This document shows positions 20,808 through 32,048 of a stretch of 32,048 nt of DNA, piece after piece; position 1 is the stretch's first letter, and every line of letters begins with the position of its first letter. A program made the position numbers and the translations under genes. The DNA lies in assembly GCA_016281125.1 (NCBI GenBank), contig JAEEIA010000028.1:1-32048 (forward strand). Reading direction: 5' to 3'. The stretch is from Oscillospiraceae bacterium. Lineage in GTDB: Bacteria; Bacillota; Clostridia; Oscillospirales; Ruminococcaceae. The notes below the pieces were generated by a model. That model saw only the letters and a list, made by a program, of their open reading frames with translations. It did no database searches and had not been told where the DNA came from.

Positions 20808-22178
20808 TTATTTTCCGGAACCGTCACGGATCGTTTTCGTGATCGTTTCGATCGCGTCGCGGAGGTTCGCATCCTTCTTCATATTTTTCTCGACATACTT
20901 GACTGCATATACAATAGTAGAGTGATCGCGGTTGCCGAATTCCTCGCCGATGGAGGCCAGCGTCATCTGAGTAATCTCATGCACCAGATAGATTGCGACC
21001 TTGCGGGCGTTGGAAATCTGCTGCGAGCGCTTCTTGGAGCGGATATCCTCCGCGGTGACGCCGTACAGGTTGGAAACCTCCTGAATGATGTTCTCGACCG
21101 TAACCGGTGTCGGCTGCTCGTCCGTCAGAATATCGCGGATGACGCTCTGCGCCATGGAAATGGACGGCGAGGAATCCGCAAGGGATTTCAGAGCCTTCAG
21201 ACGCTTGACGGCGCCCTCCAGCTGACGGATATTCGTTTTCAGGCGGTTCGCAATGAATTCCGCGACGTCATCCGGAATATTGAGATCGAGCAGCTCTGCC
21301 TTGCGGCGGATGATTGCGACTCTGGTTTCAAAGTCCGGCATGGAAATGTCCGTAATCAGGCCGGATTCAAAGCGCGTGCGGATCCGGTCCTCCAGAATCT
21401 TGATGTCACGCGGCGGGCGGTCAGAGGTCAGAACGATCTGCTTGCCGGCTGCGTGGAGAATATTAAAGGTATGGAAGAATTCCTCCTGCGTGGATTCCTT
21501 GCCGCTGATGAACTGGATGTCATCGACCAGCAGCACGTCCGCATTGCGGTACTTCTCATGGAATTTGGTGGTATCCTTTTTCTGCTGAATCGCTTCAATC
21601 AACTCATTGGCGAAGGTTTCGCCGGTGACGTAGATGATTTTCAGCCCCGGATTGCGTTTTTTCATTTCATGGGAGATTGCCGTGAGAAGGTGCGTTTTGC
21701 CAAGCCCGGACGGCCCGTAGATAAACAGCGGGTTATAGGTATTGCCGTTGTTGTCGCCGCGGGCAATACTGGTGCAGGCCGCATAGGCAAACTGGTTTGA
21801 GCCGCCGACGATAAATGTATCGAAGGTATAGGCATACTCACCGTCATTCGCTGTCTTTTCCAGTGCGTCCGCTGTTTTCTGATCCTGTTCGGCTGCATCG
21901 GCGGCATCCTCTGTGCCGTCCTGAACGATCAGCCGCAGCTTGACCGGAAAGCCGAGCGTTTCCGCAAAGCCCTCCTCCAGCAGGTGCGCATAGTTATTGT
22001 TGACAACGGAACGCTGAAATTCGGAGGCGCAATAAAAAACAGCGTCTGTTCCCTCCAGACGTGCAGGCTTCAGCGTATCCAGCCAGAGCTTTTTTGCAAC
22101 ATCACCGACTTTTCCGTTCTGCGTGCAGTATGCCTTCACAGCATCAAACACTTCTTCAAAGGAATTCAATCTGTTCAC
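20808..22178 (-). CDS. dnaA: Chromosomal replication initiator protein DnaA
   Basis: AAA+ initiator that binds DnaA boxes and opens oriC. From the GTG at 22178 the 456 residues give domain I (about 4-85), an acidic linker, the ATPase with Walker A GPSGLGKTH (155-163) and Walker B LLVDD (216-220), and domain IV with the DNA-contact signature DHSTIVYAV (418-426). Start is uncertain: GAGG lies only 2 nt before the GTG at 22178 but 11 nt before the TTG at 22169 (MNSFEEVFDAVKAYC), which matches the usual family beginning; either gives a full protein. A SigA promoter lies about 100 bp upstream, and the gene is divergent from YfhO. Confidence 0.97.
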   Translation of the reverse strand: MNRLNSFEEVFDAVKAYCTQNGKVGDVAKKLWLDTLKPARLEGTDAVFYCASEFQRSVVNNNYAHLLEEGFAETLGFPVKLRLIVQDGTEDAADAAEQDQKTADALEKTANDGEYAYTFDTFIVGGSNQFAYAACTSIARGDNNGNTYNPLFIYGPSGLGKTHLLTAISHEMKKRNPGLKIIYVTGETFANELIEAIQQKKDTTKFHEKYRNADVLLVDDIQFISGKESTQEEFFHTFNILHAAGKQIVLTSDRPPRDIKILEDRIRTRFESGLITDISMPDFETRVAIIRRKAELLDLNIPDDVAEFIANRLKTNIRQLEGAVKRLKALKSLADSSPSISMAQSVIRDILTDEQPTPVTVENIIQEVSNLYGVTAEDIRSKKRSQQISNARKVAIYLVHEITQMTLASIGEEFGNRDHSTIVYAVKYVEKNMKKDANLRDAIETITKTIRDGSGK

Positions 22179-29393: not shown

Positions 29394-29962
29394 GAAAATG
29401 CCTTGTCATTCTGTTCCTGATAGTATTGGTTCAGCTCGCCGCGGTAAATCAGCTTGGCATCCGGCAGATAGCGCAGATCGTCGGGCGAATACAGGCAGGG
29501 CGGTTTATCCAGCGTGACACCGCACTCCTCCAGCACGTAGGCTACAAACTGGGAGCAGACGAATTTTGTCTGCAATTCGCTTTCAATTTGCAGGCGCACG
29601 CGCAGAAGTCCGATAATGCTGTAAGAATACGCCTTGCGGCATTCCTGAAAATGCTCGATCATATGTTCAAAGTGTTCATACTGCGGTTCTGTCAGCGGAA
29701 TTTCGTAGATTTCGCAAGGGATAAAGGAAAATTTCCCGAGGGTTCCGACGCCGATCTGCTCGGTGTTGAATGTGGCGGGCAGCGGAATGGGTGTATAATT
29801 GCGGCAGAAGCTGTACAGTTCATTCAGGGAGGCATCTGCCGAAAGCGACACATGCGAATACGGCATTCTGGATAGTATGCGGATTGCGCGTGCGACGCCG
29901 GTATCCGTTCTTGTGACGACAACATAAACAGAACGGTTTTTTTCAATGATGTCTGTATGCAT
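29363..29962 (-). CDS. Permuted NlpC/P60-like (YiiX/YebB-type) papain-fold protein
   Basis: A 199-residue protein with the order expected of circularly permuted NlpC/P60 (papain-like) enzymes: an N-terminal strand VYVVVTRT, then His37 in MPYSHVSLS, and later Cys136 in KFVCSQFVAYVLEECG, the presumed nucleophile. Family members cleave or transfer amide, thioester or peptidoglycan bonds. No signal peptide is seen, so it is probably cytosolic. The start is taken at the ATG at 29962: AAAGGA lies 9 nt upstream, whereas it abuts the ATG at 29971. The assignment rests on motif order by eye; the substrate is unknown. Confidence 0.7.
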   Translation of the reverse strand: MHTDIIEKNRSVYVVVTRTDTGVARAIRILSRMPYSHVSLSADASLNELYSFCRNYTPIPLPATFNTEQIGVGTLGKFSFIPCEIYEIPLTEPQYEHFEHMIEHFQECRKAYSYSIIGLLRVRLQIESELQTKFVCSQFVAYVLEECGVTLDKPPCLYSPDDLRYLPDAKLIYRGELNQYYQEQNDKAFSYMPLIHSAV

Positions 29963-30039
29963 TCTTTGCATTCCTTTCGCGGAATTATTTGCAGGAACCG
30001 GAAAAAGAAATTTTCCTGCACAAAAATTGAAAAAAGGGG

Positions 30040-30068
30040 TTGCAAAAATTTCTGATTTCTGGTATAAT
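30040..30068 (+). promoter_or_regulatory. Promoter of tRNA-Arg
   Basis: TTGCAA (30040-30045), 17-nt spacer, perfect TATAAT (30063-30068), 21 bp before the mature tRNA 5' end. Confidence 0.85.
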
Positions 30069-30089
30069 AAGGACTGTACTCATGAATAA

Positions 30090-30166
30090 GCGCCTGTAGC
30101 TCAGCTGGATAGAGTGTCAGACTCCGACTCTGAAGGTCGTGCGTTCGAATCGCATCAGGCGTACCA
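30090..30166 (+). tRNA. tRNA-Arg (anticodon CCG)
   Basis: A 77-nt cloverleaf with encoded CCA. The acceptor stem is GCGCCTG/CAGGCGT (first pair G-U), the anticodon stem TCAGA/TCTGA with loop CTCCGAC (anticodon CCG, reading CGG), and the T arm GTGCG-TTCGAAT-CGCAT. It has its own promoter and a terminator 5 bp downstream. The 3' part is duplicated behind it (see the repeat). Confidence 0.96.
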
Positions 30167-30427
30167 ATCTAGCACTCCGGTTCCCGGGGTGCTTTTATAT
30201 TTGAAGTGCTTGGGGGATTGCGTGTCGAATCGCCTGCGGAGGCTCTCCGCTCGGATCGCATCAGGTGTACCAATCGAGCACTCCGGTTTCCGGGGTGCTT
30301 TTATATTTGAAGTGCTTGGGGGATTGCGTGTCGAATCGCCTGCGGAGGCTCTCCGCTCGAATCGCATCAGGCGTACCAATCTAGCACTCCGGTTTCCGGG
30401 GTGCTTTTGTATTATAAAGTGCTCAGG
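30145..30427 (+). repeat. 106-bp tandem repeat of the tRNA-Arg 3' end plus terminator
   Basis: Units start at 30145, 30251 and 30357 (last one partial), period exactly 106 bp. Each begins with the T-loop/acceptor 3' end of the tRNA through CCA (30145-30166, 30251-30272, 30357-30378) and then the full terminator hairpin. Between the units is TCGAATCGCCTG plus the hairpin GCGGAG-GCT-CTCCGC (30236-30250, 30342-30356). CGCCTG there can pair with CAGGCG (or CAGGTG) of the following unit. The first two units are almost identical, so the duplication looks recent. The remaining 160 bp up to the regulator gene hold only its promoter. Confidence 0.9.
30171..30196 (+). terminator. Rho-independent terminator of tRNA-Arg (first of three copies)
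   Basis: AGCACTCCGG (30171-30180), loop TTC, CCGGGGTGCT (30184-30193), one G-U pair, then TTT. Near-identical copies are at 30277-30302 and 30383-30408. Confidence 0.88.
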
Positions 30428-30512
30428 GAATTTTATTGTATGGCGCACTTGTTACTTTCCGGCGCATATCATTTGAAAAGCACGTATTTACGCACATGTA
30501 ACTTTGCATTGC

Positions 30513-30541
30513 TTGCGCAACGGCGTGTTTTGTGCTATACT
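30513..30541 (+). promoter_or_regulatory. Promoter of the XRE regulator gene
   Basis: TTGCGC (30513-30518), 17-nt spacer, TATACT (30536-30541) with TGC in front (extended -10), about 49 nt from the start codon. Confidence 0.7.
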
Positions 30542-30589
30542 CGCATCAGGGACAGGCAAAAGACCTGCCGACGAAAGGAGCTGTTTACT

Positions 30590-31033
30590 ATGCTGAATGA
30601 AAATCTGAAAATGCTGCGGAAAGAAAAAGGTTTCTCACAAGAGGAGCTTGCATCCAAAGTCCATGTCGTCCGTCAGACCGTTTCCAAATGGGAGAAGGGA
30701 CTTTCCGTGCCGGATGCCGAAATACTCGTGCAGATCGCGGACGTCTTTGAGGTGCCGGTCAGCCGGCTGCTCGGGGCGCTGCCTGCGGAATCCGAAGACG
30801 ATGCACCCGGTCAGCGCAATGAAATCGCGGAACAGCTGATGAAGATCAACGAGCAGCTGGTCATCAAAAACAACCGCACCCGCAAAATCATCAAGTGGCT
30901 TATCATCATTTTTGTGGTGATTCCCGCTGCGTTGATTCTGCTGTCCGTGCTTCTCGTGTTCCTGTTCAGAACCAATGTATCCAGTTCCGGTTCTCCGGAA
31001 ATTGAAACCGGTTACATTGAGATGCTGCTTTGA
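30590..31033 (+). CDS. XRE-family helix-turn-helix regulator with C-terminal membrane anchor
   Basis: A 147-residue protein. Residues 5-61 are a Cro/C1-type helix-turn-helix (LKMLRKEKGFSQEELASKVHVVRQTVSKWEKG...PDAEILVQIADVFEVPVSRLLG), a standard DNA-binding module. Residues 80-98 form a short polar helix and 101-126 a single strong membrane helix; about 20 residues follow outside. Many Bacillota carry such membrane-tethered XRE regulators, which may bind a small operator while held at the membrane. AAAGGAG lies about 9 nt before the ATG at 30590. The upstream in-frame extension is repeat-derived and unlikely to be translated. No partner gene is adjacent; target genes are unknown. Confidence 0.88.
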   Translation: MLNENLKMLRKEKGFSQEELASKVHVVRQTVSKWEKGLSVPDAEILVQIADVFEVPVSRLLGALPAESEDDAPGQRNEIAEQLMKINEQLVIKNNRTRKIIKWLIIIFVVIPAALILLSVLLVFLFRTNVSSSGSPEIETGYIEMLL

Positions 31034-31042
31034 GCATATCTG

Positions 31043-31069
31043 CTCCCCGCTTTCGCGGGGAGTTTTTTT
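31043..31069 (+). terminator. Rho-independent terminator of the XRE regulator gene
   Basis: Perfect 8-bp stem CTCCCCGC (31043-31050) / GCGGGGAG (31055-31062), loop TTTC, then seven T. It reaches the stop codon of the convergent metG gene. No T-run follows on the minus strand, so it acts in the plus direction only. Confidence 0.92.
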
Positions 31070-32048
31070 ATTCGTCGTCCTCTGCGGATGCAAACTGTGA
31101 TTCATGCCGCGTGAAGAAGTCCGTGCGCGGCGGCAGGAATTTCAGCTTGTGGTCAGCACCCGTGAAATAACTGACCGGTTCCAGAATCGTATCCCACGAC
31201 CAGATGCGCTCGTCAACCTGCAAGTATTCCCGCAGCTTTTCGGTGCCGATCGGCGCCATCGGGTGCAGCAGGACACCCGCAATGCGGATCATATAAAACA
31301 GATTGCTGAGCACCTGCAAGGTTTCCTCGCGGGTCTGTTCGTCGGGCTTCAGTGCCTTTGCCATGTACTTGCTGGCATTGCGGATATAGCCGTCCAGTAC
31401 ATAGGTACACTGGTGGAATGCAAATTTTGACATGTGGCGCTCATATTCAAGCACCGCTTTTTTCGCTTCTGCGAGGAATTTCTCCTCCGGCTGCAAATCC
31501 GGAAGAATGCCGTCCGTCACCTTCTGCGCGGTATAGAACGCAGTACGGATGATGCGGTTGTAGACATTCGAGAGCAGCAGGCCGTCCTTGATGACCGGAT
31601 CCTGCTCGTTCGGATCGGCGTCGGGGTTATAGGGCTTCGGCATAAAGCTGACGGAACGCTGTCCGAGGCCCAAACCGAGCCAGTGCATGCGCAGCTGTTC
31701 CGGGGTATAGTAATTGAGCAGATCGTCCGCCATCGGCGGCTTGACTGCACCGGAGCTGGATGCTTTCTTATCAAGGAACAGAATGTGGTGGTTCGCAACG
31801 ATGACCGGCATTTGCAGTTCACCCTCCGGCGGGATTGCGGTCTTTTCCGCGGCAGACTGCTGCGCCATCCACATGGCAGGCTCTGCGATGCCGTAGAAAT
31901 AGATATTATCCTGCCCGATGAACTGATACACGGTCGCATCCTTGCTGCACCAGTAATCCTGATAGCTTTCGGGATCCTTGCCCTGCGATTCGAGATACGC
32001 CTGCGTGAACGAGATCGGCGCCCAGAGCGATTCCGGCCAGACCCACAC
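31068..32048 (-). CDS. metG: Methionyl-tRNA synthetase-like class I tRNA ligase (C-terminal part)
   Basis: Charges tRNA-Met. The gene runs off the right edge; 326 residues of the C-terminal half are visible. Conserved segments are VWPESLWAPISFTQAY and IYFYGIAEPAMWMAQQ near the end of the Rossmann fold, and NHHILFLDKKASSSGAVKPPMADDLLNYYTPEQLRMHWLGLGLG, which holds the position of the KMSKS loop as KKASSS rather than KMSKS. The anticodon-binding helical bundle follows (NVYNRIIRTAFYTAQKV...), ending at FASAEDDE. No C-terminal tRNA-binding (Arc1/EMAP-like) domain is present. The start and the N-terminal HIGH motif lie outside the window. Confidence 0.88.
   Translation of the reverse strand: MWVWPESLWAPISFTQAYLESQGKDPESYQDYWCSKDATVYQFIGQDNIYFYGIAEPAMWMAQQSAAEKTAIPPEGELQMPVIVANHHILFLDKKASSSGAVKPPMADDLLNYYTPEQLRMHWLGLGLGQRSVSFMPKPYNPDADPNEQDPVIKDGLLLSNVYNRIIRTAFYTAQKVTDGILPDLQPEEKFLAEAKKAVLEYERHMSKFAFHQCTYVLDGYIRNASKYMAKALKPDEQTREETLQVLSNLFYMIRIAGVLLHPMAPIGTEKLREYLQVDERIWSWDTILEPVSYFTGADHKLKFLPPRTDFFTRHESQFASAEDDE

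Follow-up and report, generated by a model that had tools for sequence, protein, structure and literature searches.

Tandemly repeated tRNA-Arg(CCG) 3' ends with terminators and a possibly constrained hairpin beside metG in a Ruminococcus-like gut bacterium and its relatives

The window, that is, the whole stretch of DNA analysed here, is the 32-kb contig G000:C44 (length 32048) of a Ruminococcus-like gut bacterium; Ruminococcus sp. Phil11 (Oscillospiraceae) is a named close relative of this organism, and all the genomes compared are metagenome assemblies. Towards its right end, about 8 kb from dnaA (20808-22178) and so perhaps near the replication origin, the window holds an intact tRNA-Arg(CCG) gene, an array of copies of the end of this gene, a regulator gene and the convergent metG, in the following arrangement.

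30040..30068, + strand: sigma-70-like promoter of tRNA-Arg(CCG) (TTGCAA, 17, TATAAT); shuffles give 0.9 by chance, so that it is weak alone
30090..30166, + strand: intact tRNA-Arg(CCG) with encoded CCA (ARAGORN; Rfam RF00005, 64.2 bits)
30171..30193, + strand: terminator 1, a stem-loop followed by a T-rich tract (terminator scan)
30222..30250, + strand: hairpin module 1, made of the left flank GTGTCGAATCGCC and the hairpin at 30236-30250 (hairpin pair probability 0.99)
30251..30272, + strand: tRNA 3' tail, copy 2, running from the T loop to CCA and carrying two substitutions (covariance model R1, 78 bits)
30276..30300, + strand: terminator 2 (terminator scan)
30328..30356, + strand: hairpin module 2, left flank and the hairpin at 30342-30356 (hairpin pair probability 0.99)
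30357..30378, + strand: tRNA 3' tail, copy 3, with the same letters as the tRNA (covariance model R1, 81.4 bits)
30383..30405, + strand: terminator 3, the repeat ending beyond it at about 30423 (terminator scan, repeat finder)
30590..31033, + strand: gene of an HTH_3 (Xre-like) regulator, between the array and metG (Pfam PF01381, E 1.3e-15)
31068..32048, - strand: metG (C-terminal part), in convergent orientation to the tRNA, the contig ending within the gene (Pfam PF09334, PF08264)

Tandem Repeats Finder delimits the repeat at 30145-30423, with a period of 106, 2.6 copies, 94% matches and a score of 507. Every array copy contains the tRNA 3' tail ending in CCA and a terminator; the 22-nt tail (TCGAATCGCATCAGGCGTACCA, copy 2 differing at two positions) is found at 30145-30166, 30251-30272 and 30357-30378, the terminator stems start at 30171, 30276 and 30383, and a 15-nt hairpin, GCGGAG-GCT-CTCCGC, is placed between terminator and tail at 30236-30250 and 30342-30356. 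An earlier note on this DNA had described three units of 106 bp, each with tail, CCA and terminator; tails, CCA and terminators are all present, but the first of these units is the genuine tRNA's own end and the third is a partial piece. The near identity of units 1 and 2 reported there holds, with 102 of 106 positions identical, and the 71 nt of the partial unit that were compared match unit 1 at 60 positions and unit 2 at 58. A terminator scan of the interval 29950-30620 picked out the three terminators above plus a single weaker site, the expectation from shuffling being 0.9, and no promoter-like site other than that of the tRNA was found there, none being at the units. A single tRNA, the gene at 30090, is recognised by ARAGORN and Rfam, and these tRNA models find no full cloverleaf of a functional tRNA gene in the array units. 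The direct repeat is in register with the tRNA end and its flank, as a partial tandem duplication would leave it, and from these letters an origin by partial tandem duplication of the tRNA end appears probable.

The array extends to relatives of this bacterium. When 61 genomes were searched with the tRNA and the array, matches ran well beyond the tRNA in several genomes of the same genus, whereas in other genera, among the matches listed, the alignment was confined to the tRNA and a few bases. The covariance model of the unit, R1, matched 11 of 30 genus genomes at E<=6e-6, in all of them solely at tRNA-Arg(CCG), and six more at E 0.004-0.006, in three of which the match is the real tRNA itself; two further members of the genus (G006, G009) have a variant unit that retains more of the tRNA and carries another hairpin. 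Among 117 genomes from the order, searched with stricter filters than the genus, R1 had a strong match in our genome alone, and the best of the 116 others reached E 0.0027. In the loci that were read, complete hairpin-tail units occur in 10 of the 30 genus genomes: two each in our genome and G019, one each in G001, G011, G024, G025, G028 and G020 (with a run of N inside), at least four in G013, and in G022 four sharing a contig (the tail of the last being poor) plus one at the end of another. G016 has one unit with a ruined tail, an end piece alone is found in G002, G003 and G023, and the unit is absent in G005, G007, G008, G010, G012, G014, G015, G018, G027 and G029 (the G029 locus being at a contig end). 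The repeat is thus found at the same locus in relatives and is not the single-strain slippage product that the earlier note had allowed for.

Zero units are therefore present in 13 of the 26 genus genomes in which the locus was seen, a count that leaves aside G004, G017, G021 and G026 (tRNA-Arg(CCG) not found or locus not fetched), and copy number ranges between 0 and at least five, unit numbers being lower bounds where a contig ends in the array. The contigs of G022, G013 and G001 break in the array or in the tRNA, which is the behaviour seen at long repeats; arrays of this sort interrupt metagenome assemblies and may lead tRNA annotation astray. Unit presence on a metG protein tree with 24 labelled rows (G019 and five other genomes are not on it) requires 8 changes against a shuffled mean of 8.3, and the starred, well-supported branches alone force 4; with nine unit-less rows uncounted, the same tree gives 4 changes against a shuffled mean of 4.4. 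Unit carriers show no clustering on this tree, and because the 8 changes are as in shuffles, gain and loss, or exchange, are frequent. For G013, placed among unit-less species, transfer or repeated loss is needed. The two terminator types stand in opposite order, by eye, in the close species G020 and G024 (L002 and L005), which fits shuffling by recombination between tails, and G002 and G003, which have an end piece but lack a unit, suggest contraction.

Such fast gain and loss is unlike a much-needed module and speaks for neutrality. Indeed, slippage or unequal crossing-over could yield tail copies that simply drift and are homogenised by gene conversion, with the hairpin hitch-hiking or being renewed by palindrome-correcting mutation. 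This neutral account, which we consider doubtful although deserving of serious attention, agrees with the variable copy number, with the shuffle-like distribution on the metG tree, with the units being most alike within one genome (by eye), with units that have no promoter in the window and no covariation in the Arg family, and with the partial copies present at several tRNAs. It is opposed by the hairpin, whose 16 nt show 97% mean identity over 36 pairs of nine genomes (one unit each) against 56% at the four-fold sites of metG (range 38-83%; the 8 of the nine genomes that have metG). Over the same nine genomes the tail averages 89% and the left flank 63%, the latter figure alone being affected by a filler letter that pads the G011 string, and terminator plus spacer are 53% identical against 43% when shuffled. 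The 97% is inflated because a fuzzy match to hairpin and tail served to find the units, and it excludes G016 (tail lost), G020 (run of N), and G006 and G009 (other hairpin); adding the last two would lower it, though both of their hairpins are perfectly paired.

The different hairpin of G006 and G009 occupies the position of the usual one, and both sides of its stem are changed. The usual hairpin is kept also in the one-unit genomes G001, G011, G024, G025 and G028, where the lack of a second complete unit means that there is no complete donor for conversion, and in our own genome the exact 16-mer occurs in the array only, which likewise counts against the neutral account. In G013 the four tails have diverged from the usual tail of the tRNA, yet all five hairpins are perfect. 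The tail-less end pieces, which we had hoped would serve as an internal control for constraint on the hairpin, do so only partly and are weak and mixed: the hairpin is broken in G001, G002, G003 and G020 (1-3 of 6 pairs), has changed letters with 5 of 6 pairs in G024, is another hairpin in G023 (by eye) and is intact in G013 and G016, and the G008 and G027 rows of this comparison belong, by eye, to another repeat.

The locus thus presents a duplication found at the same place in many genomes of the genus, with variable copy number, diverged terminators and spacers, and a near-invariant hairpin. On balance, we favour reading it as a set of duplicated, recombining tRNA-end cassettes with a possibly constrained hairpin-tail module. 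A tandem duplication of the 3' part of tRNA-Arg(CCG) and of its terminator would have founded the array, and unequal recombination between the tails would then make the copy number grow and shrink, each extra unit being a fixed module of the 15-nt GC hairpin, the tRNA 3' tail and a terminator. That selection keeps the hairpin-tail module is plausible, and we propose it tentatively, at somewhat less than even confidence. As to its role, the module might offer a second or third 3' end and stop to polymerase that reads past terminator 1, between the tRNA and the convergent metG, but we regard this particular function as unlikely. Among the three origins entertained by the earlier note, namely decayed tRNA copies, old attachment-site duplications and short tRNA-like RNAs, partial tRNA copies produced by tandem duplication give the best fit. 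Fragments of tRNA genes are usually taken as debris or integration scars; if the cassette reading is true, a tandem tRNA-tail cassette that occurs across a genus and has a near-invariant hairpin, together with the covarying tRNA-Thr sibling described below, would offer a testable example of how tRNA pieces are reused as RNA modules.

As short tRNA-like RNAs, the units would be transcribed by read-through, cut by RNase P at a minihelix and left with a CCA end. The proposed acceptor-like stem, in which CGCCTG at 30231 or 30337 is able to pair with CAGGTG at 30262 or CAGGCG at 30368, can be drawn in the window, and both extra tail copies there encode ACCA. In fact, the unaided RNAalifold consensus of 16 units from nine genomes is this very minihelix, a 5-bp acceptor-like helix stacked on the 6-bp hairpin, with 92.5% and 96.9% of the cells paired in the two helices, values that shuffles reach as well. 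However, it is not the fold predicted for the window units: as 52-nt pieces they give a probability of 0.99 for the hairpin and of 0.00 and 0.02 for the acceptor-like stem, which is improbable there because an alternative extended hairpin is more stable, by 3.6 and 2.6 kcal/mol, and so a stable coaxial helix ending in RCCA, such as RNase P would recognise, is hardly predicted to form. In the family, the acceptor-like stem reaches a probability of at least 0.5 in 5 of the 16 units and is broken in G028 and G011, and units of G011, G022, G024 and G025 encode no CCA.

The hairpin itself has a predicted probability of at least 0.8 in 12 of the 16 units (0.00 in the second unit of G019, where two of its pairs are broken, and 0.20 in one unit of G013), and all six of its pairs are kept in 14 of the 16 aligned complete units. 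None of the 11 pairs of the Arg minihelix changes on both sides in the 16 units. Against shuffles, isolated 55-nt pieces of the window units fold no better than most (z -0.09 and -1.35), and 106-nt pieces that include the terminator fold somewhat better (z -1.93 and -2.07). By these predictions the hairpin is solid in the window, and the minihelix is possible but unfavoured there. The tRNA-like RNAs draw additional support from the strong covariation of the extra hairpin in the Thr sibling copies; with the stem unfavoured and free of compensatory changes in the Arg units, we rate functional RNAs of this kind as very unlikely. A by-eye idea, that a permuted acceptor and D-stem 5' strand lies inside the unit, was dropped as too short.

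Similar copies accompany tRNA-Thr(CGT). Our own gene (L073, G000:C79:59230-59302) has one copy of 3' type in which a GC hairpin replaces the anticodon arm, and in relatives downstream 3'-type copies occur in G002, G009, G012 (at least four) and G018, downstream whole tRNA-like copies with an extra hairpin in G022 and G016, and copies in the upstream leader, with the extra hairpin between D stem and anticodon stem, in G001, G006, G009, G011, G017, G020 and G021. These come from loci L149-L176 of the genus and from a search in which one tRNA-Thr query covered mostly the promoter side, tail and head copies still being found. The extra hairpin covaries, 7 of its 10 pairs changing on both sides in eight aligned sequences, which were chosen to stay in register (six rows from three genomes, which by eye pair in another register, were omitted). 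Together with the anticodon stem, 91.6% of the cells pair, a value that none of 500 shuffles attains and that falls to 27-50% in slid versions; the number of pair types is unexceptional, with 125 of 500 shuffles as high. A model of the Thr copies matched 13 of 30 genus genomes at E<1e-8, where intact tRNA-Thr genes score about 2e-8 to 7e-7; most but not all such places, G016:C127 being an exception, enter the description above. Non-canonical tRNAs with altered arms (PMC7609411) are comparable to these Thr copies; the Arg units have neither D arm nor anticodon arm. It is conceivable, though we think it rather unlikely, that the genus holds a family of tRNA-derived, terminator-bearing RNA modules beside tRNA-Arg(CCG) and tRNA-Thr(CGT), the Thr ones often in the leader of the real tRNA, that act as RNA, for example on the 3' ends, the processing or the supply of those minor tRNAs. 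In L170 and L171 (G013 and G010), tRNA-Thr copies are interrupted in the T arm by TTGTCGGTAAAGCGACATCACA... and repeated in tandem, at a spacing of 117-118 bp in L170. In G002, G003, G020, G022 and G024 a single contig carries both the Arg and the Thr tRNA gene, at a distance of 4-8 kb.

We also surveyed the flanks of the tRNA genes in the fetched loci, 700 bp on each side. Partial copies accompany 3 of 46 tRNA predictions in our own genome, 4 of 27 in G012 and 2 of 42 in G022, where one prediction is itself an array unit. Apart from the copies at Arg(CCG) and Thr(CGT), they consist of 5' halves that precede Arg(CCT), Pro(TGG) and Ser(CGA) on the upstream side, those at Arg(CCT) and Ser(CGA) stopping near the anticodon loop. 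We infer that 3' pieces downstream and 5' pieces upstream are the leftovers to be expected from partial tandem duplications in which one intact tRNA survived. The 5' half in the tRNA-Arg(CCT) leader (our own L091 and L230 of G012) has, by eye, a core of ~34 nt that is identical in two distant species though their intact tRNAs differ.

The tRNA 3' end from the T loop onward is a common target of integration, and the fragments at 30251-30272 and 30357-30378 are precisely this part of the tRNA. The tails could then be displaced attachment-site ends of lost phages or islands that used tRNA-Arg(CCG), as the earlier note had also suggested, and the 5' halves that end near the anticodon loop would agree with such an origin. 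That tRNA gene fragments can stem from integration is known (PMC9897764). What speaks against it here is the position of metG, which lies convergently 59-1581 bp beyond the tRNA in 22 of the 23 loci holding tRNA-Arg(CCG) (most of these gaps are plain distances, measured without annotation) and 418-507 bp into the contigs of G001, G022 and G013 that start inside the tRNA or the array. With metG so close there is little room for an island, no mobile element stands between the tRNA and the fragments at their 106-bp spacing in the window, and units of about 90-106 bp with a terminator in each are not elements. In the exception, G019, metG is absent in 4.4 kb that contain a PemK/MazF-like gene (Pfam) and GAPDH (by eye), and no integrase is seen, by eye, among the nine listed ORFs; likewise, none was recognised by eye among the ORFs of the window, L049, L169 and L250, and none of six proteins compared with Pfam is an integrase. 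The comparison of relatives for copy number and inserted elements thus brought out the former, in its range of 0 to at least five, and nothing element-like in the parts inspected. Attachment-site duplication is accordingly unsupported and was ruled out as the main reading by the tRNA-metG distance; relics of integrative elements appear, if anything, slightly less probable than the tRNA-like RNAs.

As with integration-derived fragments (PMC9897764), tRNA pieces lie here beside or away from an intact gene; unlike those described there, the array has no intervening element and is tandem and evenly spaced, with a terminator and a hairpin of its own in each unit. In Pseudomonas fluorescens, serTGA genes were gained through tandem duplications of 45-290 kb with whole genes (PMC7661048); tandem duplication is the source in both cases, but the array repeats about 106 bp and only the tRNA end. 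No published report of such tRNA-tail arrays was among the matches listed from the open-licence literature.

A looser pattern of the hairpin occurs at 53 places in our own genome, a number of which are coding look-alikes, and its reversed control at 0. The genome also has an interspersed, hairpin-ended repeat (end AATCGCCAGCGGGGGCTCCCCGC) whose final 23 nt look like the central part of the unit, with AATCGCC and then a hairpin; it differs in the letters of the hairpin, and no tRNA tail follows the copies that were read. Insertion of this genome-wide hairpin repeat is a possible source of the units: the ends are alike, but the letters differ and the exact hairpin is nowhere else in this genome. 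By eye, our own genome has about ten copies of an interspersed repeat whose end, CCCGGAGGGAATCGCCAGCGGGGGCTCCCCGC or a near variant, is also similar to the mid-part of the array unit; examples are at G000:C1:7535, C16:135068 and C28:85900. Small GC hairpins also lie directly behind several of its tRNA genes, Pro-GGG, Leu-TAA, Tyr and Gln-CTG (L110, L112, L083; by eye).
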